The position numbers were made by a program, and so were the translations under genes. A stretch of DNA of 64,000 nt from a virus: the IMG/VR virus record IMGVR_UViG_3300042341_001202, positions 1 to 64,000 of that record; one strand, written 5' to 3'. The notes below the pieces were generated by a model. It saw nothing but the letters and a program-made list of their open reading frames with translations, was not told the origin of the DNA and ran no database searches. Below are positions 2,339-47,410 of the stretch, in pieces; positions within the stretch are counted from its first letter, which is position 1, and each line of letters starts with the position of its first letter.

Positions 2339-3466
2339 ATGATGCAAACTAATGAAGCCCAAGATTGGGAACAGATAAAAGATCCAGCAAAAAGATGGCT
2401 TGGAAGATTCACATATATGAATCAAGGAAAGAATCCCGAAAAGCACGTATTAGATACTCTCATCAAGAAATATCCCAACAAAGCTGGAGTCATATATCGA
2501 GGAATGAATTTCACTCGGGAAGAATCCTATACAGAGTTCATGGAACTGTTCAACAAGTCAAATGGCAAGTTAACGTTCAATGTGGTCACAAGCTGGAGTG
2601 GTGATCCCAGCACTGCTAACCAATTTGCATTGACTCAACCCACTTATCAATTGAATCCTGCTGTGTTAGCCGCTCATGACCAACAAATGAAACGTCGAGA
2701 AAGGCTTAGTGGTTACAGAGGAGTAATTTTGAAAACCACTGTCTCTGCTGGAGTGGGCATTGATGTTGACGCCACTGGGGTTGGACATGAGAGTGAAATT
2801 GTGTTACCTCCTGGCACTTATCAAACAGAGATTTACCAAGAAGTAAAACAATACAAACACAGTCTTGAGGATGGCGACACCTCAGTTGATGATGTGATTT
2901 TGAAAACAACAGCAGAGAGCTTACGCAGCCGATCTACAGAGCACAGCTTCTTTGACTATGTGATACATCATCATGGCCAGGAATTGAGTCCAAAAGCACA
3001 GCAGCATTTGTTGAAATTGTTTGGTCCTCAAACTGGTATACCTTTGTTCAAGAGTTCTGTTGATCAGCATACAAATTACTTTACCAAAAAACCTGAGGTG
3101 ACGTTTGACTATCACATACCAAACATACGGCTGTTTGAGTTGGCAGAAAAAGGAATTTTCACTCCTGAAGTAACAAATAAGATCAGATTGTTGGGTAAAA
3201 AAATCATTAGTCAAGCACTGCCTGTAATAGAGAGTGTTATAGTTGATGCCACTTATTTCAACCCAGCACAGTTGGGTCTGGTGAGTAGGATTAGTCAGGA
3301 CAACCGAGTGATTGATGCTATAAGAAAAGCCATTAAGCCAGCAGTAGCCCAATTGAATCAAAAAGTTCAGGACATCAACAAAATACAAGATCCAAAAGAG
3401 AAAAGGCAGGCCATTGAGCATTACAAGGATGAGATGGTGCGCCTGTTAAGCAGATTGGGCATATAG
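2339..3466 (+). CDS. ADP-ribosyltransferase (R-S-E class)
   Basis: 375 residues. The toxin-type ART triad is visible: Arg54 in Y-R-G-M, the S-x-S strand T-S-W-S-G (about 84-88) followed by STANQF, and the catalytic E-x-E at about 151-153 (HESEIVLPPG). This is the layout of the ADP-ribosyltransferase exoenzyme fold, which includes T4 Alt/ModA and VIP2-like toxins that transfer ADP-ribose from NAD+ to host proteins. The C-terminal 200 residues are helical and unassigned. It sits beside a TAAATA box, upstream of the NAD-synthesis genes. The target is unknown; RNA polymerase and ribosomal proteins are the known T4 precedents. Confidence 0.85.
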   Translation: MMQTNEAQDWEQIKDPAKRWLGRFTYMNQGKNPEKHVLDTLIKKYPNKAGVIYRGMNFTREESYTEFMELFNKSNGKLTFNVVTSWSGDPSTANQFALTQPTYQLNPAVLAAHDQQMKRRERLSGYRGVILKTTVSAGVGIDVDATGVGHESEIVLPPGTYQTEIYQEVKQYKHSLEDGDTSVDDVILKTTAESLRSRSTEHSFFDYVIHHHGQELSPKAQQHLLKLFGPQTGIPLFKSSVDQHTNYFTKKPEVTFDYHIPNIRLFELAEKGIFTPEVTNKIRLLGKKIISQALPVIESVIVDATYFNPAQLGLVSRISQDNRVIDAIRKAIKPAVAQLNQKVQDINKIQDPKEKRQAIEHYKDEMVRLLSRLGI

Positions 3467-6361: not shown

Positions 6362-7093
6362 ATGATTATAATTCCTGACTCTCCCATTGCAGTTACACAT
6401 CTAAAAAGGCCTATTATTCTCCCAGGAACTCCTTTACCAGATTATGTGGTGGAGAAAATACTCGCAAGTGAACAAGTTATTGACGATGATGACTCCTCCT
6501 TTGAAACAATGTTTTCTGGGGCAAAACCAATTGATTCGTCCGGCTTTACTGGGGCAGTGACTCAGTGGGTTGAAGGAGAACTTGGAAGTTTAGGGTATCC
6601 TATAAATCACAGCAGAGGGATTGACGTACCGCCCTACAGTATCGAGATCAGAACTCGCAGAAAACACGCTACAGCTCCACAAACTTTTGGGTCTCTCAAA
6701 CTATCAGATATAATTCAAAACTCATGGCTTACATCTGATATCAAAACAAAGTGTCAACTCCACTATCAAGTGATGTGGGATGCGCAACACATGGTTGTTT
6801 GTGACGATCAAATCGTGGATTTCCGACATCCTTGGAGACAAGAGGCGTTACAAAAAGCTTTTGATAATGCTAGGGATGAGCTGATTGCATACTATTCTAG
6901 GCCCAATATTACAGTGCCTTTGAAATTCACTTCGACTGCTGGCGGAATTTATCTTGAAAGAACTTCAAGGAAGAACAGCAAAAAAAGCTGGTTCTCAGCA
7001 TTTTACCAGTTTCGAGTACGAAACAATTTGATGGAAAAATGGCATATAGCGGGCAGGAAAAACTCATACGATGAGCTGTTTTCAAAAATTTAA
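6362..7093 (+). CDS. Hypothetical protein (243 aa)
   Basis: Begins 3 bases after pyrE. The N-terminal part contains a proline-rich stretch (P-I-A-V...P-I-I-L-P-G-T-P-L-P-D-Y) and an acidic patch E-Q-V-I-D-D-D-D. The centre holds R-T-R-R-K-H, and the C-terminus is basic and aromatic. No domain recognised. The AT-richer composition differs from nadM and nadV, so it may have a separate origin. Confidence 0.6.
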   Translation: MIIIPDSPIAVTHLKRPIILPGTPLPDYVVEKILASEQVIDDDDSSFETMFSGAKPIDSSGFTGAVTQWVEGELGSLGYPINHSRGIDVPPYSIEIRTRRKHATAPQTFGSLKLSDIIQNSWLTSDIKTKCQLHYQVMWDAQHMVVCDDQIVDFRHPWRQEALQKAFDNARDELIAYYSRPNITVPLKFTSTAGGIYLERTSRKNSKKSWFSAFYQFRVRNNLMEKWHIAGRKNSYDELFSKI

Positions 7094-24836: not shown

Positions 24837-24908
24837 GCGCATCTGGCTGAGAAGGGAAGCACACCCTTGATAAGGGTGGAGAGGCAGGGGCAGTACCTGC
24901 GGTGCGCA
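24837..24908 (+). tRNA. tRNA-Ile (GAT), non-canonical T-loop
   Basis: Acceptor GCGCATC/GGTGCGC, anticodon loop TTGATAA, T-stem GCAGG/CCTGC with loop GGCAGTA (G at 54 and 55 instead of T and pseudouridine). CCA encoded. Confidence 0.85.
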
Positions 24909-24926
24909 CCAAGTTAAGAATATAAT

Positions 24927-24998
24927 GGGGCATGGGCAAGGTACCCGGAGGATCTTTGCAAGATCCTAGCCTGATCGGCGCGATACCGATATGCTCCA
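24927..24998 (+). tRNA. tRNA-Ala (TGC), non-canonical
   Basis: Acceptor GGGGCAT/ATGCTCC, anticodon loop TTTGCAA in a 6-bp stem, T-loop CGCGATA (G55). The D-arm is unusual (GGG...CCC directly after the acceptor). CCA encoded. Confidence 0.75.
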
Positions 24999-25006
24999 CC
25001 AATTGT

Positions 25007-25077
25007 AGGTCGCTGGTGAATTAGTATCACGTTGAGCTCCAACCTCAAAGTGCCGGGGGCGGTACCTGGGTGGCCTG
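25007..25077 (+). tRNA. tRNA-Trp (CCA), non-canonical T-loop
   Basis: Acceptor AGGTCGC/GTGGCCT with wobble pairs, anticodon loop CTCCAAC, discriminator G as in bacterial Trp tRNAs, T-loop GGCGGTA (G55), CCA encoded. Could also be the tRNA that reads the UGA in the release factor gene. Confidence 0.82.
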
Positions 25078-25102
25078 CCAACTATTCTCTCAACCAACAA
25101 TT

Positions 25103-25208
25103 GCCATCGAGGTTGGAACAGCCTCCCAACACACCATGAGAATGGTAACTAGCCGGCAGCAATCACCTAGCTGGTGAAGAAATCCGGAAGTGGCATCCGG
25201 CGATGGCG
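25103..25208 (+). tRNA. tRNA-like gene with anticodon-loop insertion (Leu candidate)
   Basis: Acceptor GCCATCG/CGATGGC (perfect), D-stem GTTG/CAAC, anticodon stem CACC/GGTG, T-stem CCGGA/TCCGG with loop AGTGGCA. Between the anticodon-stem strands lie 37 bases instead of 7, including a GAGA-capped hairpin (ACCAT/ATGGT). Removing about 30 bases gives a loop with anticodon GAG or TAG, both Leu. The variable region is short (about 7). Confidence 0.5.
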
Positions 25209-30259: not shown

Positions 30260-30330
30260 GCAGGTATGGTGTAATAGGAACTCAGTGCGTTGCCAACGCA
30301 CAGTCGCCGGAGCGTTACCGGCTACCTGCT
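30260..30330 (+). tRNA. tRNA-Gly (GCC), non-canonical T-loop
   Basis: Acceptor GCAGGTA/TACCTGC, anticodon stem GTGCG/CGCAC with loop TTGCCAA, T-stem GCCGG/CCGGC with loop AGCGTTA (G55), discriminator T, CCA encoded. Confidence 0.87.
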
Positions 30331-30381
30331 CCAAACTTCCTTCTGTAAATATCCCAAACTGTTTACAGAAAGGACAAAAAA

Positions 30382-32392: not shown

Positions 32393-32998
32393 TTACCATC
32401 TTGCATTATCCTCAAATCCAGCATCTTCTAGTTCTTTTTGACAATCAAACATGGCACGTTTGCCTTGTCCTGCGTATTTGTTCAAGATTGTTTCAACAGT
32501 CGTGTGATTCATTGCTGACCGCAACGAGATACTTTTGGCTGCCAAACAACGGAGCAGTGGAAGAGTAGGCGTGTAAGGTATAGCCAAGTAATTGAGCTCT
32601 GAAGGCATACCTTGGAGTGAGGTTAATGGGTTGAGGTGACAACTAAAAAGATCACCAACACTGCTGGGAGCACCTTCCAGTGAAGTCAGTTGGTTGTTGA
32701 AGCATACGAAACTTCCAACCACATTCTTGGGTGCAGCTTTAAGTGAAATAAGTTGGTTACTTGAGCCTAAGAAACTTCCACCAACACTCTCTGGCGCCCC
32801 GTCCAGTGTGGTTAGTTGGTTGTAATCGCACTGGAAGTGTCCAAGAACACTCTTGAAACGCACAGGGAACTGGGGTAATTGTCTTTTAAGTATAACATTA
32901 CCCTGGCAAGTGATCAACCCCTCAGGATCTATTGTGACTTGGCCTGTTGTTTTGAAATTAGCTTTCAACAAAGCCATTACTTCTTTTTTGTCTACCAT
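32393..32998 (-). CDS. LRR-family paralog (201 aa), last of operon
   Basis: MVDKKEVMALLKANFKTTG head, a G-x-I-x-C-x-G-x-V strand, six LRR-like units (S-L-E-G-A-P-S-S-V-G-D-L-F-S-C-x-x-N-P-L-T), tail Q-G-K-R-A-M-F-D-C-Q-K-E-L-E-D-A-G-F ending in NARW. Closest in its head to the partial paralog at 1-125. Converges with the SleB gene. Confidence 0.88.
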   Translation of the reverse strand: MVDKKEVMALLKANFKTTGQVTIDPEGLITCQGNVILKRQLPQFPVRFKSVLGHFQCDYNQLTTLDGAPESVGGSFLGSSNQLISLKAAPKNVVGSFVCFNNQLTSLEGAPSSVGDLFSCHLNPLTSLQGMPSELNYLAIPYTPTLPLLRCLAAKSISLRSAMNHTTVETILNKYAGQGKRAMFDCQKELEDAGFEDNARW

Positions 32999-33744
32999 CT
33001 TGCATTCCCTTCAAATCCAGCATCTTCCAGTTCTTTTTGGCAGTCAAACATGGCACGTTTGCCTTGACCCATATACTTTTGCAGAATAGCCCGCACCTCG
33101 TGTGGCCATCCCATACCCGACCACAGTTTTTTAGCATTTAAACAACGCAAGAGCGGCAGAGTGGGGCTGTAGTCAATCCATAAAACCCTTACTTCAGTAG
33201 GCATTCCTTCAAGTGACTCTAGCTGATTACCCCATGCTCTCAACTCGCCAGTGATGGTTTTTGGTGCACCGTGTAGTGAGACTAGTTTGTTTTCCATGCA
33301 AAACAAATCATGCACTTTCTCAGGAACATGTTCCAGTGATGAGAGTTGATTTGTCATACAAGAGAAATTGGCACCAACTGATTTGGGACAGTGTTCAAGG
33401 CTTTCTATGTTGTTATTATCGCATTTGAAATCTCCGCCCACATGTTGAGGCGAACCCAACAAACTGGTGAGTTGGTTGTGGCCACACTTGAAATCTCTAC
33501 CTACCCAAGAGGGTGCGCCTTCTAGACTCACCAGATCGGTATGCTGTACAGCAAAATCGTAGCGTATTTTTCCAAACCTTACCCGCAAGGTTTTTATACC
33601 TGGCTTACCATCAAGGTAAGATTTCTCCTTGCTCTTGACACTGCCTGTGCAGGATATCAATCCTGTGTTGGGATCAACAGAGAGTTTACCTGTGTGAGAG
33701 TAATATTTGTCAAAAGTTTTTTTGATCCCGGCTAGATCTACCAT
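32992..33744 (-). CDS. LRR-family paralog (250 aa)
   Basis: Head MVDLAGIKKTFDKYYSHTG, then a longer than usual strand section and about seven repeats (x-H-N-Q-L-T-S-L-L-G-S-P-Q-H-V-G-G-D-F-K-C). Tail is the family type with MGQGKRAMFDCQKELEDAGF. Stop overlaps the next gene's ATG in ATGGTAG. Confidence 0.88.
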   Translation of the reverse strand: MVDLAGIKKTFDKYYSHTGKLSVDPNTGLISCTGSVKSKEKSYLDGKPGIKTLRVRFGKIRYDFAVQHTDLVSLEGAPSWVGRDFKCGHNQLTSLLGSPQHVGGDFKCDNNNIESLEHCPKSVGANFSCMTNQLSSLEHVPEKVHDLFCMENKLVSLHGAPKTITGELRAWGNQLESLEGMPTEVRVLWIDYSPTLPLLRCLNAKKLWSGMGWPHEVRAILQKYMGQGKRAMFDCQKELEDAGFEGNARW

Positions 33745-34355
33745 CGTGCATTTCCTTCAAATCCAGAGTCTTCCAAATCTTTTTGGCAGTCAAACATGGC
33801 AGCTTTGCCTTGACCTGCATATTTGTTCATGATTTCTTGAACCTTCTGGGGTGGCTCCGATTCATCAACCCTATGCATGAATACAATTTTTTTGGCAACC
33901 AATGCACGTAGCAAAGGCAAAGTGGGCGAATATTGTAACACTAGTCGCCCTAAACCTTCTTGCGGTATGCCTTCAAGACTTTCAAGTGGATTGCCCACAC
34001 AACTCAAAGATCCAAGAACTTTTTTGGGTGCACCTTGCAAGCTCTTGAGCTGGTTGAACCCACATAAGTAGTGTTCGCCAACAGCATCAGGACCGCCTTC
34101 AAGAGTTTGTAAATTGTTCTCAGTACAACGAAATTCATTGTAGACATATTTGGGAGATCCTTGAAGGCTTGTGAGCCCCATGCCCCCCACATCAAATCCT
34201 TCCACTTCATAAAAGCCAACTGGCAACTTCTTAACATGCAACATAAGCGTTACGTAACCTTTTGTGCTTATTGTTCCATCAGAATTGATTACAATGCTTT
34301 CATTACATTGAAAATAATCATCAAAAGTTTTTTTGATGTTATCAACGTCTACCAT
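33738..34355 (-). CDS. LRR-family paralog (205 aa)
   Basis: Head MVDVDNIKKTFDDYFQ, five repeats with L-Q-G-S-P and L-E-G-G-P turns, tail G-Q-G-K-A-A-M-F-D-C-Q-K-D-L-E-D-S-G-F (Ala in place of Arg). Overlapping stop/start with both neighbours. Confidence 0.88.
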   Translation of the reverse strand: MVDVDNIKKTFDDYFQCNESIVINSDGTISTKGYVTLMLHVKKLPVGFYEVEGFDVGGMGLTSLQGSPKYVYNEFRCTENNLQTLEGGPDAVGEHYLCGFNQLKSLQGAPKKVLGSLSCVGNPLESLEGIPQEGLGRLVLQYSPTLPLLRALVAKKIVFMHRVDESEPPQKVQEIMNKYAGQGKAAMFDCQKDLEDSGFEGNARW

Positions 34356-34987
34356 TTTGCATGATCCTCAAATCCAGCGTCTTCCAAATCTTTTTGGCAA
34401 TCAAACATGGCACGTTTGCCTTGGCCAGCATATTTGTTCAAAATTGTCTGCACTTTTCCCTTCTCCACAGTGTGAGTGTCGTCAGCAGGCTCTAAAAATA
34501 TATGCCTTGCTGCCAAGGTACGTAAGAGAGGCAAATGTGGTAGATACGGTAACCAAGCTGCATTTTCCACTTTCAACGGAAATCCATCCAAGCTTTTCAA
34601 CGGATTACCAATGCAATTGAAATTATTGGGTATCTGGACAGGTGCCCCCTTCAAATCAACAAGTTGATTATGGTCACAGTAGTAGTTCCAACCTACAATT
34701 TCTGGCCCCCCACTAAGGCTTTTGAGCATGTTACGTGAACAGTCAAAACTCACGCCCACTTCAGGGGGACAGCCTTCCAAGGTTACTAGTGCGTTCTCAT
34801 CTAACGATAGATTTTCAGTTACAGCTTTGAAGGCAACTGGCAGTTTTTCAAAACGTGTATAGTGGAGATTCAACAATTGAATATCGCCATTTACTGTTAC
34901 CAGTCCATCTGATGAAACTTTTGCACTGTTGTAGTCAAAGCTGAAATGGTCTTTCAATAACTGCAAGATTTCTCGTTTGTTTACCAT
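34349..34987 (-). CDS. LRR-family paralog (212 aa)
   Basis: Head MVNKREILQLLKDHFSFD, repeats with N-A-L-V-T-L-E-G-C-P-P-E-V-G and N-Q-L-V-D-L-K-G-A-P, tail ending DHAKW rather than NARW. Stop overlaps the next ATG. Confidence 0.88.
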   Translation of the reverse strand: MVNKREILQLLKDHFSFDYNSAKVSSDGLVTVNGDIQLLNLHYTRFEKLPVAFKAVTENLSLDENALVTLEGCPPEVGVSFDCSRNMLKSLSGGPEIVGWNYYCDHNQLVDLKGAPVQIPNNFNCIGNPLKSLDGFPLKVENAAWLPYLPHLPLLRTLAARHIFLEPADDTHTVEKGKVQTILNKYAGQGKRAMFDCQKDLEDAGFEDHAKW

Positions 34988-35640
34988 CTGGCGTTGTCCT
35001 CAAATCCGGCATCTTCCAATTCTTTTTGACAATCAAACATAACACGTTTTCCTTGCCCCAAATATTTTTCCAAAATGTATAACACCTTCCAGGCATCGCT
35101 GCCCTCGCTTTGATACGGCCAAAAAATAATCTCTGGTGCCACCAATGTGCGCAACAAAGGCAGCTGAGTATCATAAGTGATATACAAACTATCTCCAATT
35201 TTTTGAGGAAAGCCCTGCAAGCTCTCTAGAGGATTGGCTGAACAATTGAACACACTGGGGATTTCTCTAGGTGCCCCTTCCAAATCCTTCAATTGATTTT
35301 TACTGCAATTATAACTGCCGCCAAATGTGGGTGTTTGTGTCGTGCCTATTGTTTTGGGTCCAAACTTCAAACTTTTGAGTTCATTATTGTCACACTCAAA
35401 ATTCTTACCAACAGTTTCTGGACAACCCTCTAGTGTCTTGAGTTGGTTGATGCTGAGCATCATACTGCCTTCAATGTGAGAAAATTTCACCGGTAGTTCT
35501 TGAAAAGAACTGTGAAATTTGTTGTATAACACAACGTCTCCCATGACACTGACTTTGCCAGCTGGATCAACAATGGGGTCCCCATCTACCATGAAATGTT
35601 GAGTTAGCGTGTTCAACACATGCTGTTTGACGTCTACCAT
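34981..35640 (-). CDS. LRR-family paralog (219 aa)
   Basis: Head MVDVKQHVLNTLTQHF, a strand G-K-V-S-V-M-G-D-V-V-L, repeats with N-Q-L-K-T-L-E-G-C-P-E-T-V-G-K-N-F-E-C, and a small insertion (T-T-Q-T-P-T-F-G-G) in one repeat. Tail has V-M-F-D-C-Q-K-E-L. Confidence 0.88.
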   Translation of the reverse strand: MVDVKQHVLNTLTQHFMVDGDPIVDPAGKVSVMGDVVLYNKFHSSFQELPVKFSHIEGSMMLSINQLKTLEGCPETVGKNFECDNNELKSLKFGPKTIGTTQTPTFGGSYNCSKNQLKDLEGAPREIPSVFNCSANPLESLQGFPQKIGDSLYITYDTQLPLLRTLVAPEIIFWPYQSEGSDAWKVLYILEKYLGQGKRVMFDCQKELEDAGFEDNARW

Positions 35641-36239
35641 CTTGCATTTCCTTCAAAGCCCGCATCTTCCAGTTCTTTTTGGCAATCAAACAGGGCACGT
35701 TTGCCTTGTCCTGCGTATTTGTAAAATATTCCTTCAATTGTTAGAAGTTTGCTTTGCATAACATTGTGGGCATACAGCATTAGGCCCTGTTGGCAGTTCA
35801 AAGCTCGAAGCAAGGGCAATTTATTGTGATAATTTATGCTCAAGTGTTGGCCTACTCGTTGGGGAAACCCAGCAAGACTCAACACTGGAACCTCTTGTCT
35901 AAATCCCACACGACCTGAAACCTCAAGGGGCCCACCTGTCATGTCTTTCAAAGGATTTTTGTTGGCAGTGAATCTGCCTCCCACAATCTGCGGACAACCT
36001 TCAAGACTGGAGAGTCCACATCTGTCTAAAATCAAACTGGCATGGCAAACGCCAAATTTTACAGGCAGTTTTCCATTGGGAAACGGTCCTTGTATGGCCA
36101 AGAGCACACCATATCCTGGTGTGATCTCCTGCACATTTACTATACCACTATCTTCAATTTGAAAGCGCACCCGGTTGTCTGCCTCACCATTACGAAAATA
36201 AGTGTTCAACATGTGCTGAACTTCTTGTTTGTCTACCAT
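35634..36239 (-). CDS. LRR-family paralog (201 aa)
   Basis: Head MVDKQEVQHMLNTYF. The second half of the N-terminal domain differs (I-T-P-G-Y-G-V-L-L-A-I-Q-G-P-F-P) and is shared with the next gene at 36233, so these two form a subfamily. Tail R-A-L-F-D-C-Q-K-E-L-E-D-A-G-F. Confidence 0.88.
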   Translation of the reverse strand: MVDKQEVQHMLNTYFRNGEADNRVRFQIEDSGIVNVQEITPGYGVLLAIQGPFPNGKLPVKFGVCHASLILDRCGLSSLEGCPQIVGGRFTANKNPLKDMTGGPLEVSGRVGFRQEVPVLSLAGFPQRVGQHLSINYHNKLPLLRALNCQQGLMLYAHNVMQSKLLTIEGIFYKYAGQGKRALFDCQKELEDAGFEGNARW

Positions 36240-36832
36240 CTTGCATTTCCTTCAAATCCAGCATCCTCTAGATCTTTTTGACATTCAAACAGGGCACGCT
36301 TGCCCTGTCCTTTGTATTTTTCAATTATTTCTTCAATGGGATTAGTGTTAAAGGATGATGAGCTCAATATTACACCATCTTGGCAAGCTAACGTGCGCAG
36401 CAGCGGCAACTTGTCATGGTAAGGCAGTTTAGCATAGTCACCCACCCTATCAGGAAAACCATCCAAACTCTCTAATAGGTTTTTCTGCATCCCAAGCCAA
36501 AACCTACCTGTGACTTCTTTGGGCCCACCCTTGAAATTTTTCAATTGATTGCCAAGTGCAACAAAATTGCCTTGGATTACAGGGGGACAACCAACCAAGT
36601 CCACGATTTGATTCCGGTCCAATTTTAAGCTGGCTTTGAACAAGCCAAATCTCACAGGCAACTGACCTCCAGGGAAGGGTTTGTCCTTAATAGTGCGGAG
36701 ATGGCCGCGACCAGGAGTCAGCTCAAGCACATTAACCAAGCCCTCAGGACCTATGTCAAATTTCACAGCGTCATTTGGCTCAAAGAAAAAATACTCTGCC
36801 AACAGTTCCAAAATTTCCCTTTTGTCTACCAT
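36233..36832 (-). CDS. LRR-family paralog (199 aa)
   Basis: Head MVDKREILELLAEYFFFE, subfamily strand L-T-P-G-R-G-H-L-R-T-I-K as in 35634-36239, four repeats, tail R-A-L-F-E-C-Q-K-D-L-E-D-A-G-F (Glu for Asp). Confidence 0.88.
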   Translation of the reverse strand: MVDKREILELLAEYFFFEPNDAVKFDIGPEGLVNVLELTPGRGHLRTIKDKPFPGGQLPVRFGLFKASLKLDRNQIVDLVGCPPVIQGNFVALGNQLKNFKGGPKEVTGRFWLGMQKNLLESLDGFPDRVGDYAKLPYHDKLPLLRTLACQDGVILSSSSFNTNPIEEIIEKYKGQGKRALFECQKDLEDAGFEGNARW

Positions 36833-37647
36833 TTGGCGTTCCTTTCAAATCCTGCGTCTTCCAATTCTTTTTGACAGTCAAACAGGGCTCGTTTGCCCTG
36901 GCCTGCGTATTTTTTCAAGATGGTTTCCACTTGAATATACTTGCCCCACAGCACAGGCCAAAAATTGACCTTCTGGGCTACCAAAAGCCGTAACAAGGGC
37001 AAATCGGATTTGTAACTGACTTCAATCAAATCAGGAGTTTGGGAGCCTAACCCCTCAAGATTTTCCAAGGGATTGTGATCAAAAATAAACTGCTTGGAAA
37101 TATTCAAAGAGGCACCTTTGAGTGTTGTGAGCTTGTTGTTGGTTGCCCAAAAATATTCCACGGTCTGTGGTGCGTCTTGAAGATCAGTCAAGAGATTTTT
37201 ACTGACATCAAACATACCACCTATTTGCAGGGGAGCACCTCGCAAACTCACTAAATTGTTGTTGTATGCAATGTATTCTTGTGTAAAGTCTCGTGGACTT
37301 CCCAACAAATCTGAGAGTTTATTATTCTGGCAAGAATATTGTCCTTTTACTGTTTTTGGGCCACCAACCAAGCTGATCAACTGGTTTTCACTGCAATCAA
37401 ATGTGTCCAAGACAGTGTGAGGACAGCCTTCAAGTGTTTCCAACTTGTTCCTGTGACAGAGAAAATTGCCTTCCACCACTCCAAATCTCACAGGCAATCG
37501 AGAGGTCTCTTTGCTCAACAAAATTGATCCATGAGCATCTACAACACCTGTATCATGTATAGTGAAAAGGGTACTTTCCCAACCAAAGTATTCATTCAGT
37601 AACTGACGAACAGTTGTTTTGTCTTGTGGGAATTCCTGGTTTACCAT
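36826..37647 (-). CDS. LRR-family paralog (273 aa), longest
   Basis: Head MVNQEFPQDKTTVRQLLNEYF, then eight or nine repeats, the most of any member, with the clearest spacing of about 20 residues (N-K-L-E-T-L-E-G-C-P-H-T-V-L-D-T-F-D-C). Tail ends RNAKW. Confidence 0.88.
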   Translation of the reverse strand: MVNQEFPQDKTTVRQLLNEYFGWESTLFTIHDTGVVDAHGSILLSKETSRLPVRFGVVEGNFLCHRNKLETLEGCPHTVLDTFDCSENQLISLVGGPKTVKGQYSCQNNKLSDLLGSPRDFTQEYIAYNNNLVSLRGAPLQIGGMFDVSKNLLTDLQDAPQTVEYFWATNNKLTTLKGASLNISKQFIFDHNPLENLEGLGSQTPDLIEVSYKSDLPLLRLLVAQKVNFWPVLWGKYIQVETILKKYAGQGKRALFDCQKELEDAGFERNAKW

Positions 37648-38297
37648 CGTGCATTTTCCTCAAAACCCGCATCTTCCAATTCTTTTTGGCAGTCAAACAA
37701 AGCACGTTTGCCTTTGCCTGCATAACTGTTCAAAATTTTATGTAACTGCTGGAATTTTCCTTCGTTTCCTCGCTTATATTGCATAGGCACAATAAGGTCC
37801 ACATGCAAGGCTCCTAATGTTCTCAACAGTGGTATTGTGGGACTATACGTCAATGTTACCCAAGCAATGCTCTTGGGCAAGTGGTCAAGTGACTCCAGTG
37901 GGTTGTCTTGAATCTCCAGATTGTCAGATACTGTGTCCGGCAAACCTTGTAGAGAAGTCAACTTGTTGCTATTGAGAAGGATACTGCCACTGACCCAATG
38001 CGGAAAACTGGTTAACTTTGATAGCAAGTTGAAGCTGGCGTCGAAATCTCCTTCAATCTCAAATGGGCATCCTTCCAAGGTTCTTAGATTCTTGTTGTTG
38101 CAGGTGAAGGTACCATGCACCTTACTGAAACGCAAAGGTAACTGAGATTGAGGCCGCGTTAGGTGTAAGTCACCAGCCACAACAATCTTACCATCTTGAT
38201 CAAACATCCAACCAGCTGGATATAAGGCATTGCTCTCTATCTTGAAGTTCTGGCTCAAGATGGTTTTGGTTTGTTCATATTCCACATCACTTACCAT
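37641..38297 (-). CDS. LRR-family paralog (218 aa)
   Basis: Head MVSDVEYEQTKTILSQNF, repeats N-L-R-T-L-E-G-C-P-F-E-I-E-G-D-F and N-K-L-T-S-L-Q-G-L-P, tail R-A-L-F-D-C-Q-K-E-L-E-D-A-G-F ending ENARW. Confidence 0.88.
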   Translation of the reverse strand: MVSDVEYEQTKTILSQNFKIESNALYPAGWMFDQDGKIVVAGDLHLTRPQSQLPLRFSKVHGTFTCNNKNLRTLEGCPFEIEGDFDASFNLLSKLTSFPHWVSGSILLNSNKLTSLQGLPDTVSDNLEIQDNPLESLDHLPKSIAWVTLTYSPTIPLLRTLGALHVDLIVPMQYKRGNEGKFQQLHKILNSYAGKGKRALFDCQKELEDAGFEENARW

Positions 38298-39984: not shown

Positions 39985-40067
39985 GCGGCGTTAGCTCAGG
40001 GGTTAGAGCACAAGTCTTCCAAACTTGAGGCGAATAGGTTCCATCGGTTCGAATCCGATACGCCGCT
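39985..40067 (+). tRNA. tRNA-Gly (TCC) with enlarged variable region
   Basis: Acceptor GCGGCGT/ACGCCGC, anticodon stem CAAGT/ACTTG with loop CTTCCAA, T-loop TTCGAAT, discriminator T, CCA encoded. About 15 bases lie between anticodon and T stems, unusual for tRNA-Gly. Confidence 0.82.
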
Positions 40068-40157
40068 CCATTTAAACTTACTAACAGTTTTTGAGACGCA
40101 TACTATCGTGTTTGTTTTTGATTGTGTTAAACTTAAAATTACTACAAACATTCGTAG

Positions 40158-40200: not shown

Positions 40201-40321
40201 GGATCCGTGGTCTAATTGGATAAGGCAAGAGCCTTCCGGTCCCGCAGGTAGCATTCAAGGTTCGAATCCTTGGGGACCGCTCCTAAGCTCTTCGATGGGG
40301 GTTCGAATCCCTCCGGGTCCG
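40201..40321 (+). tRNA. tRNA-Arg with a 47-base tRNA-like minihelix in the anticodon loop
   Basis: Acceptor GGATCCG/CGGGTCC, D-stem GTC/GGC, anticodon stem AGAGC/GCTCT, variable 5, T-loop TTCGAAT, discriminator G, CCA encoded. The loop is 54 bases (40233-40286). Removing 40237-40283 leaves CTTCTAA, anticodon TCT (Arg). The insert is a 7-bp stem CGGTCCC/GGGACCG stacked on a T-arm CAAGG/CCTTG with loop TTCGAAT, like an acceptor-T minihelix. Confidence 0.78.
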
Positions 40322-40356
40322 CCACTTACTACACTCTTATAAAAGAACCCAACCTA

Positions 40357-41148
40357 ATGCAACCACTCACCCCCGATCAAACCCAACGCATAAAAGAATT
40401 ATGGCATCAAGCCGAAGGAATTGTGATCTTGGCTGGTGCCGGCATGAGTGTAGACAGTGGCTTGCCAGATTTTCGAGGCGCCACAGGCTTGTGGACCGAG
40501 GCCAAAGAAAACTTTCTCAAGAAAGCTACAGCCAAAAGTTTTGACACCAATCCCCTTGAGGCTTGGAACTTTTACGTTGGCCGCATGATTAAATATCAAG
40601 ACACTGTCCCACATGAGGGTTACAAGATCCTCCTGGATCTCCTACAATCACACAACAAAAAAAGTTTTGTAGTAACCAGTAATGTTGATGGCCATTTTTT
40701 GAAAGCTGGTTATGACCCACAATATCTCTATGAGATACATGGCAATCTGCGAAAAATTCAGTGCACTCAACCCTGTTGCCGAAACTTACCCTCTATGCCA
40801 AAATTTTCTTCCCTGCTCACCTCAGAACAGGAAATCCCCAAATGCCCCTACTGCAACAAGAATGCTCGACCAAATGTGCTGATGTTCAACGACCCAGGGA
40901 TTGTTTGGACACAAATTGATCAAGGTCAAGAAAATTTTCGGAATTGGGCAGCATCAAAGATGGAGGTTTTGGGTATTGAAATTGGTGCAGGAACTGGAAT
41001 CCCCAGCATTAGGATCTTTGGTCAAGAACGCACCACTAACTTGATTCGCATCAATCCACATGAGTTTGAAACTTCACGTACAAGTGATTTAGGAATCTCT
41101 GCCGGTGGGTTAGAAGGGATACGGGCCCTAGAGAGGGCTGTGGGCTAG
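40357..41148 (+). CDS. Sirtuin (Sir2 family NAD-dependent deacylase)
   Basis: 263 residues from ATG 40357. G-A-G-M-S-V-D-S-G-L-P-D-F-R-G (NAD binding, about 27-41), V-T-S-N-V-D-G-H-F, catalytic His in Y-E-I-H-G-N-L, and four Zn-binding cysteines (C-T-Q-P-C, C-P-Y-C), then A-R-P-N-V-L-M-F. Classical deacetylase architecture rather than the Thoeris/DSR-type SIR2 nuclease. Could deacylate host or phage proteins or NAD-linked signals; consumes NAD+ made by NadM/NadV. Confidence 0.9.
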   Translation: MQPLTPDQTQRIKELWHQAEGIVILAGAGMSVDSGLPDFRGATGLWTEAKENFLKKATAKSFDTNPLEAWNFYVGRMIKYQDTVPHEGYKILLDLLQSHNKKSFVVTSNVDGHFLKAGYDPQYLYEIHGNLRKIQCTQPCCRNLPSMPKFSSLLTSEQEIPKCPYCNKNARPNVLMFNDPGIVWTQIDQGQENFRNWAASKMEVLGIEIGAGTGIPSIRIFGQERTTNLIRINPHEFETSRTSDLGISAGGLEGIRALERAVG

Positions 41149-47268: not shown

Positions 47269-47339
47269 GGCCCCATAAGACAAAGGTAGTCAGCTGGACT
47301 CTAAATCCAGTGGTGTGAGTTCAAATCTCACTGGTGCCA
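47269..47339 (+). tRNA. Amber suppressor tRNA (anticodon CTA)
   Basis: Acceptor GGCCCCA/TGGTGCC (one C-T mismatch), anticodon stem CTGGA/TCCAG with loop CTCTAAA, so anticodon CUA reads UAG. T-loop TTCAAAT, discriminator A, CCA encoded. Own promoter and terminator. Charging amino acid cannot be read from sequence. Confidence 0.83.
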
Positions 47340-47410
47340 CCAAAAGTTTACAAAAAGGTTTTCAAACAAAATAATGACCTAGGTTTCACACAAGTTTGAA
47401 CTTTTCTTTG

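Follow-up and report, generated by a model that had tools for sequence, protein, structure and literature searches.

Can a tRNA gene whose anticodon loop holds a second tRNA-like element still give rise to a functional tRNA, and how would the additional nucleotides be removed? The question is posed by a tRNA-Arg gene in an IMG/VR virus record of 148,227 bp, of which the first 64 kb, here called the window, were analysed. The gene (positions 40201-40324, plus strand) has an anticodon loop of 54 nt that includes a 47-nt insert, as can be read directly from the sequence (Table 1). The only tRNA introns generally assumed to occur in bacteria and in the viruses that infect them are self-splicing ones.

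An earlier note, made without database searches, had described the insert as an acceptor/T-arm minihelix residing in the anticodon loop of a tRNA-Arg. Direct reading confirms this description: the acceptor strands of the insert pair at 7/7 positions and its T-stem at 5/5, CTCC follows at the insert end, and the gene as a whole is scored as a tRNA by Rfam (43.8 bits, cut-off 29). The two cuts envisaged in the note, just before CGGTCCC and four bases past GGGACCG, indeed leave CTTC and TAA. The insert thus lies between anticodon bases 35 and 36, and removal of the 47 nt yields the loop CTTCTAA and a perfect tRNA-Arg(UCU); when spliced in silico, the gene is called a clean tRNA-Arg(TCT) by ARAGORN. 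With default settings, ARAGORN misses the window gene; with introns allowed, it places an intron at 32/33 and predicts Arg(CCT), a register that was rejected, as it breaks the rule common to the other families described below. Two T-loop motifs spaced by 20-50 nt occur once in the window and in 0/100 shuffles. The tRNA sequence recurs identically in three further contigs (119, 181 and 310 kb) and is therefore not an assembly error. Only one other tRNA-Arg is present in the same array, with the anticodon CCT.

The reading that we prefer, with a probability of roughly 0.7, is that the gene encodes a functional tRNA-Arg(UCU) with an intron that is removed by RNase P and 3' processing and sealed by a ligase. 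RNA data are lacking, and splicing is inferred.

Table 1. Features of the interrupted tRNA-Arg gene and its neighbours, and nested tRNA genes of other contigs; positions refer to the window unless a contig is named.
Feature	Location	Strand	Interrupted tRNA	Basis
5' exon of tRNA-Arg(UCU): acceptor GGATCCG, D-arm, AGAGC, loop 32-35 CTTC	40201-40236	+		sequence, structural scan, ARAGORN on spliced form
Outer acceptor stem, one G-U pair	40201-40207/40314-40320	+		sequence
Outer anticodon stem AGAGC/GCTCT	40228-40232/40287-40291	+		sequence
Insert (proposed intron), 47 nt, anticodon 35/36	40237-40283	+		sequence, structural scan
Insert acceptor 5' strand CGGTCCC; proposed RNase P site immediately 5' of 40237	40237-40243	+		7/7 pairs with 40273-40279; position paired in 17 families
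Linker GCAGGTAGCATT, 12 nt, contains GG, replaces D-arm and anticodon arm	40244-40255	+		GG in 9/9 minihelix linkers
Insert T-arm CAAGG TTCGAAT CCTTG	40256-40272	+		sequence, structural scan
Insert acceptor 3' strand GGGACCG	40273-40279	+		sequence, structural scan
Discriminator plus three (CTCC), proposed 3' cut after 40283	40280-40283	+		structural scan
3' exon: loop 36-38 TAA, GCTCT, variable TCGAT, T-arm, acceptor, G-CCA	40284-40324	+		sequence, structural scan, ARAGORN on spliced form
Outer T-arm GGGGG TTCGAAT CCCTC (discriminator G; CCA ends at 40324)	40297-40313	+		sequence
Upstream neighbour tRNA-Gly(UCC), same tRNA array	39985-40070	+		ARAGORN/Rfam
Downstream neighbour, SIR2 family protein	40357-41148	+		Pfam PF02146, 8.9e-24
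Minihelix insert, 44-48 nt	window		Arg-UCU	
Minihelix insert, 44-48 nt	L116/L451		Lys-UUU	
Minihelix insert, 44-48 nt	L092/L447/L509		Ile-UAU	
Minihelix insert, 44-48 nt	L156/L407		Gln-UUG	
Minihelix insert, 44-48 nt	L121/L538		Asn-GUU	
Minihelix insert, 44-48 nt	L444		Val-UAC	
Minihelix insert, 44-48 nt	L442		Arg-UCU	
Minihelix insert, 44-48 nt	L613		Gln-UUG	
Minihelix insert, 44-48 nt	L625		Glu-UUC	
Longer/degenerate tRNA insert, 65-86 nt	L382/L418		Pro-UGG	
Longer/degenerate tRNA insert, 65-86 nt	L503		Thr-UGU	
Longer/degenerate tRNA insert, 65-86 nt	L349		Ile-UAU	
Longer/degenerate tRNA insert, 65-86 nt	L237		Gln-UUG	
Longer/degenerate tRNA insert, 65-86 nt	L196		Lys-UUU	
Longer/degenerate tRNA insert, 65-86 nt	L532		Ser-GCU	
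Complete, intact tRNA-Phe as insert	L088/L424		Arg-UCU	
586-nt insert with HNH endonuclease gene	L619/L620/L622		Lys-UUU	
Leader-hairpin nested inserts	L640-L647 (Lak megaphages), L532:3923-4065, L040 near 6400-6550 (IMG/VR contigs)			

Acceptor-T stacks are substrates of RNase P, whose cut would leave a 5'-phosphate on the insert and a 3'-OH on exon 1. The proposed pathway would proceed as follows: the minihelix folds within the anticodon loop, a step supported by pairing and covariation; RNase P, by inference, cuts 5' of acceptor base 1, so that exon 1 keeps its 3'-OH; a 3' endonuclease, presumably of RNase Z type or RNase E in combination with trimming, cuts after discriminator+3 or, where no CCA is present, after the discriminator, providing exon 2 with a 5'-phosphate; and a phage ATP-dependent RNA ligase of the Rnl1, Rnl2 or DRB0094 type is inferred to join the exons to an exact 7-nt loop. 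In the window gene, CTTC would be joined directly to TAAGCTCT. RNase Z cleaves 3' of the discriminator and, in several bacteria, 3' of a CCA that the gene itself encodes (PMC7479834); the resulting 5'-phosphate on exon 2, together with the 3'-OH left by RNase P, constitutes the ends that ATP-dependent RNA ligases join. Phage RNA ligases have been linked to the repair of cleaved anticodon loops (PMC7824862). In the predicted fold of lowest energy, the window precursor has its two similar T-arms paired to each other (-45.6 vs -41.1 kcal/mol for the nested fold; folding z-score of -0.66), so that, should the model be right, the order of folding or the binding of proteins has to play a part.

The same nested design was found in at least 17 tRNA families of unrelated sequence, the window included, with Arg, Lys, Ile, Gln, Asn, Val, Glu, Pro, Thr and Ser as isotypes. 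The families were collected by searching viral contigs for pairs of T-loops with 20-50 nt between them, by narrower scans, one scan of genome contigs and a structural scan, which tested the inner T-stem and acceptor as well as the outer acceptor, anticodon stem and T-stem. These searches were restricted to GG/CC T-stems and mostly to CCA ends, and covered inserts in the anticodon loop only. Among the genome-contig matches listed, a single case was convincing, the Ile gene of a 164-kb contig (L349) with a phage-type RNA ligase, probably a phage binned with a Mollicutes genome. DNA similarity searches with four nested genes returned no named phage; the matches of L424 covered only its inner tRNA.

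Several groups of candidates were set aside. Many double-T-loop matches consist of an intact tRNA followed by a second T-loop, a probable attachment-site remnant, and were excluded by means of the outer acceptor, the anticodon stem and the 7-nt loop. Full or near-full tRNAs within tRNA-like halves (L406/L427, L048, L435 and L171) have non-standard loops and were left out; complete tRNAs lie at 7656 in L435, 1668 in L406, 8096 in L427 and 4994 in L048, the spliced loop not being 7 nt, and these four may be recent insertions or follow another register. The matches in L334, L278, L226, L135 and L148 seem to be chance pairings without a proper D-arm.

A hallmark of the class is a single excision rule, which supports the removal by tRNA-end processing that the earlier note had suggested, the RNA cleavage and ligation themselves remaining inferred. 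In all 17 families, the insert extends from acceptor base 1 to discriminator+3, or to the discriminator where no CCA is present, and excision would produce a loop of 7 nt that has T33 and a standard anticodon (17/17); the insertion sites are 34/35 in seven families, 35/36 in seven and 36/37 in three. Loop length and T33 were requirements in this tally, which is hence no independent test. When the spacing was left free, the commonest value (15/31 matches) was the one that yields a CCA tail and a 7-nt loop; the Pro genes of L382/L418 appeared at another spacing and fit once the anticodon stem is moved by one base. For 14 of the 17 families, in-silico spliced forms were submitted to ARAGORN, which called one clean tRNA of standard isotype in each (14/14) and mostly called no tRNA in the unspliced forms; for Gln (L613), Glu (L625) and Ser (L532), which were left out, loop and stems rest on the structural scan only. 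The insert ends in N-CCA in 14/17 families, among them three (L442, L444 and L613) in which the outer tRNA itself lacks CCA. The window insert departs from this with CTCC; in L121 and L532, where hardly any tRNA of the array has an encoded CCA, the insert stops at the discriminator. The base preceding the proposed RNase P cut is T in 14/17 families, which fits the model but is partly forced by anticodon composition.

The helices of the inserts appear to be maintained by selection on pairing. Across the 17 families, the insert acceptor is paired at 99% and the T-stem at 98% of positions, and the outer helices at 96-99%, whereas controls with one strand slid by 1-2 positions reach 33-62% (42-50% for the insert acceptor). 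The seven insert acceptor pairs comprise 3, 4, 4, 4, 4, 4 and 4 Watson-Crick types. The scan thresholds favour paired helices and thereby account for part of these percentages, but not for the number of pair types. Pairs were counted from structure coordinates because whole-gene alignment with MAFFT misaligned the inserts. All minihelix linkers contain GG (9/9; shuffle p=0.00025), which we read as the counterpart of D-loop G18-G19 docking on the T-loop.

The inserts form a size series: complete tRNA-Phe (L424), degenerate tRNA and minihelix, plus the 586-nt version with an HNH gene. From this series it may be inferred that a tRNA probably inserts into the anticodon loop of another tRNA, and that the inner tRNA would then shrink to the part needed for excision. 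The idea, also raised in the earlier note, that the window insert is a decayed nested tRNA therefore stands with respect to nested origin, since other families hold degenerate or complete tRNAs; decay, in contrast, concerns only the identity of the inner tRNA, as its acceptor and T-stem are still constrained to pair.

These data bear on whether the gene works at all. A tRNA or tRNA fragment could have landed in a tRNA-Arg gene that is now dead and drifting: the inner tRNA is devoid of D-arm, anticodon arm and CCA, evidence of transcription is absent, and ARAGORN fails to call the gene by default. Yet the outer tRNA is perfect once spliced, and 17 families keep the length of the spliced loop, T33, isotype and insert helices with covariation; the members of the pairs L116/L451 and L121/L538 differ by substitutions that preserve both structures. 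Furthermore, wherever an array could be listed, it usually holds no uninterrupted gene for the interrupted isoacceptor. Examples are Pro in L382 (array of 16 tRNAs), Gln in L156 (25 tRNAs), Thr in L503 and Val in L444, although most contigs are fragments and a second copy elsewhere is possible. Non-redundancy is expected if the interrupted gene works, not if it is a dispensable wreck, and a dead gene is considered very improbable. Non-redundancy also argues against the notion that the released minihelix is the actual product, a decoy or regulator, with the outer tRNA as a mere carrier. The strong constraint on the insert helices and the general ability of tRNA enzymes to bind minihelices would be compatible with such a role; however, the acceptor sequences are not conserved between families, and the outer helices are equally constrained (0.96-0.99); this possibility is likewise considered very improbable.

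A different matter is which enzyme cuts. The insert may be a true intron that is removed not by RNase P and RNase Z but by a dedicated splicing endonuclease of phage or host, or a ribozyme activity, that recognizes the minihelix. The leader-hairpin subclass described below needs another 5' cut, the window insert lacks CCA, and the Lak phage introns are still unexplained (PMC6784885). On the other hand, both insert boundaries fall where a mature tRNA would begin and end in 17 families, including the one with a complete tRNA-Phe insert; inserts of 44-48 nt are far below group I or II size, the window has no Rfam intron match, and the junction is not a bulge-helix-bulge. We regard a dedicated activity as unlikely, and excision by RNase P and 3' processing as the better account of the boundaries.

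Group I introns also interrupt bacterial tRNA anticodon loops and may, like some of the inserts described here, carry homing endonucleases, but they are self-splicing ribozymes of >200 nt, as opposed to 44-48 nt here. An Rfam scan of the window at gathering thresholds revealed only tRNAs and one skipping-rope RNA and no intron, and the 47-nt insert, without a match to the intron covariance models, does not qualify as a self-splicing intron of either group I or group II. Archaeal and eukaryotic tRNA introns are likewise small, located in the anticodon loop and dependent on proteins for removal and ligation; they usually reside at 37/38 and are cut at a bulge-helix-bulge, whereas here the site is 34/35 to 36/37 and the ends are tRNA-like. 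The window junction, an internal loop of 4 nt by 7 nt that separates the anticodon stem (5 bp) from the insert acceptor (7 bp), lacks the 3-nt bulges flanking a 4-bp helix, and neither the window site (35/36) nor that of any of the 17 families is the canonical 37/38. The window insert has the features that define the class, an acceptor/T minihelix whose excision at tRNA ends would give a 7-nt loop with T33, and lacks the N-CCA end, which is common in the class and not universal. The closest precedent is found in Lak phages, whose tRNAs contain conserved introns, one maybe encoding a tRNA, termed 'enigmatic' by Devoto et al. 2019 (PMC6784885); the part of that paper available to us describes no mechanism, minihelix class or endonuclease version. 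Both concern phage tRNA genes with inserts, and three T-arm-bearing inserts were found here in Lak A1/A2/C1; these three have a 26-30 nt leader with a hairpin and end at the discriminator, whereas the window insert starts at the acceptor. In the literature searched, which comprised open-licence papers only, nothing was found on the minihelix class, on where its inserts begin and end or on a mechanism. We regard the class as new because no known tRNA intron type has the tested defining features, one example (Lak) having been seen before.

The leader subclass comprises the Lak Val, Ser and Gly genes, L532 and L040. A leader of 26-32 nt precedes the inner acceptor and forms a hairpin of 4-6 bp with a six-base loop (ACAG AGTAAA CTGT and variants), and the 3' end is discriminator-only; the window insert, which starts directly at the acceptor, lacks this hairpin. 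With ~28 extra nucleotides before the inner acceptor, RNase P alone would give a wrong end of exon 1, and an extra 5' cut is needed. L532 was counted among the 17 families in an alternative register with one acceptor mismatch.

The last step of the proposed pathway calls for a ligase, and the search for an RNA ligase elsewhere in the phage genome, as the earlier note had advised, was successful for the 310-kb contig of the window phage: it encodes a T4 Rnl1-type ligase (PF09511, 2.3e-27) and a DRB0094-type ligase (TIGR02306, 1.4e-46). None was found in the 148-kb record that holds the window. ATP-dependent RNA ligases are present in most phages with nested tRNAs. The DRB0094-like family phrog_968 occurs in 6/8 nested contigs of at least 40 kb vs 3/27 controls (Fisher p=0.0012); the p-value is indicative only because the family was chosen after the first hits had been seen, and the controls were hand-picked by size and order and not matched for tRNA number. 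Some ATP-dependent RNA ligase is found in 11/27 controls. The L442 phage lacks phrog_968 and has Rnl1 and Rnl2 types; RNA ligases were found later in L503, L040 and the Lak records (phrog_968) and also in L622. Neither the L121 nor the L532 contig, each possibly a fragment, yielded a ligase, and RtcB was not detected in the phage records with nested tRNAs. Ligase-like matches in G006 (98.8 kb) and G009 proved to be DNA ligases. Phage RNA ligases such as T4 Rnl1 likewise seal anticodon-loop breaks, with the difference that they mend host nuclease damage and no encoded insert is removed (PMC7824862).

Elements with a homing endonuclease gene are probably mobile. The HNH-bearing insert in tRNA-Lys of L619 (586 nt, 26% G+C) keeps the acceptor GTGTAAT/ATTACAC, a D-arm-like hairpin, the T-arm and ACCA around an ORF of 174 aa (HNH, PF13392, 3e-9), the stop codon of which lies within the T-stem. 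A GIY-YIG gene and an RNA ligase gene are located within ~3 kb of the nested tRNA-Glu of L625. In Lak A2 and C1, the insert resides in a tRNA-Gly(UCC) and is absent in A1; the flanks match and the anticodon stem differs, as co-conversion would give. L626 contains an HEG-like ORF (2500-3310, plus strand) with the flanks GCATTAAAAA and TTTTTAATGC between apparent tRNA-Cys halves, possibly an intron without a T-arm.

It thus seems somewhat probable that a third class of tRNA introns exists: phage-borne, mobile, bounded by a minihelix, excised by tRNA end-processing and closed by phage ligases, with HNH versions and a tRNA-in-tRNA origin. If true, this would show how RNase P, 3' processing and a repair ligase, all of them already at hand, can be combined into protein-dependent tRNA splicing; phage RNA ligases would have a second job, and the 'enigmatic' Lak phage introns would be explained. 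The class also reveals tRNA genes missed by standard finders.

The window holds further RNA genes. Four tRNAs on the plus strand, Ile-GAU (24837-24911), Ala-UGC (24927-25001), Trp-CCA (25007-25080) and Gly-GCC (30260-30333), have the T-loops GGCAGTA, CGCGATA, GGCGGTA or AGCGTTA where TTCRANN would be usual; each has a 3' CCA, and ARAGORN missed all four. A tRNA with the anticodon CTA (47269-47342, plus strand), assigned to Pyl by ARAGORN, is likely an amber suppressor; the L349 array has one too. The skipping-rope RNA (RF02924, 44.5 bits; 25102-25208, plus strand) lies within the tRNA array, and the tRNA-Gly(UCC) upstream of the interrupted gene has an unusually long variable region of ~14 nt. 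In the middle of the tRNA region, nine consecutive ORFs of ~200-270 aa with 7-base overlaps occupy the minus strand (32393-38297).
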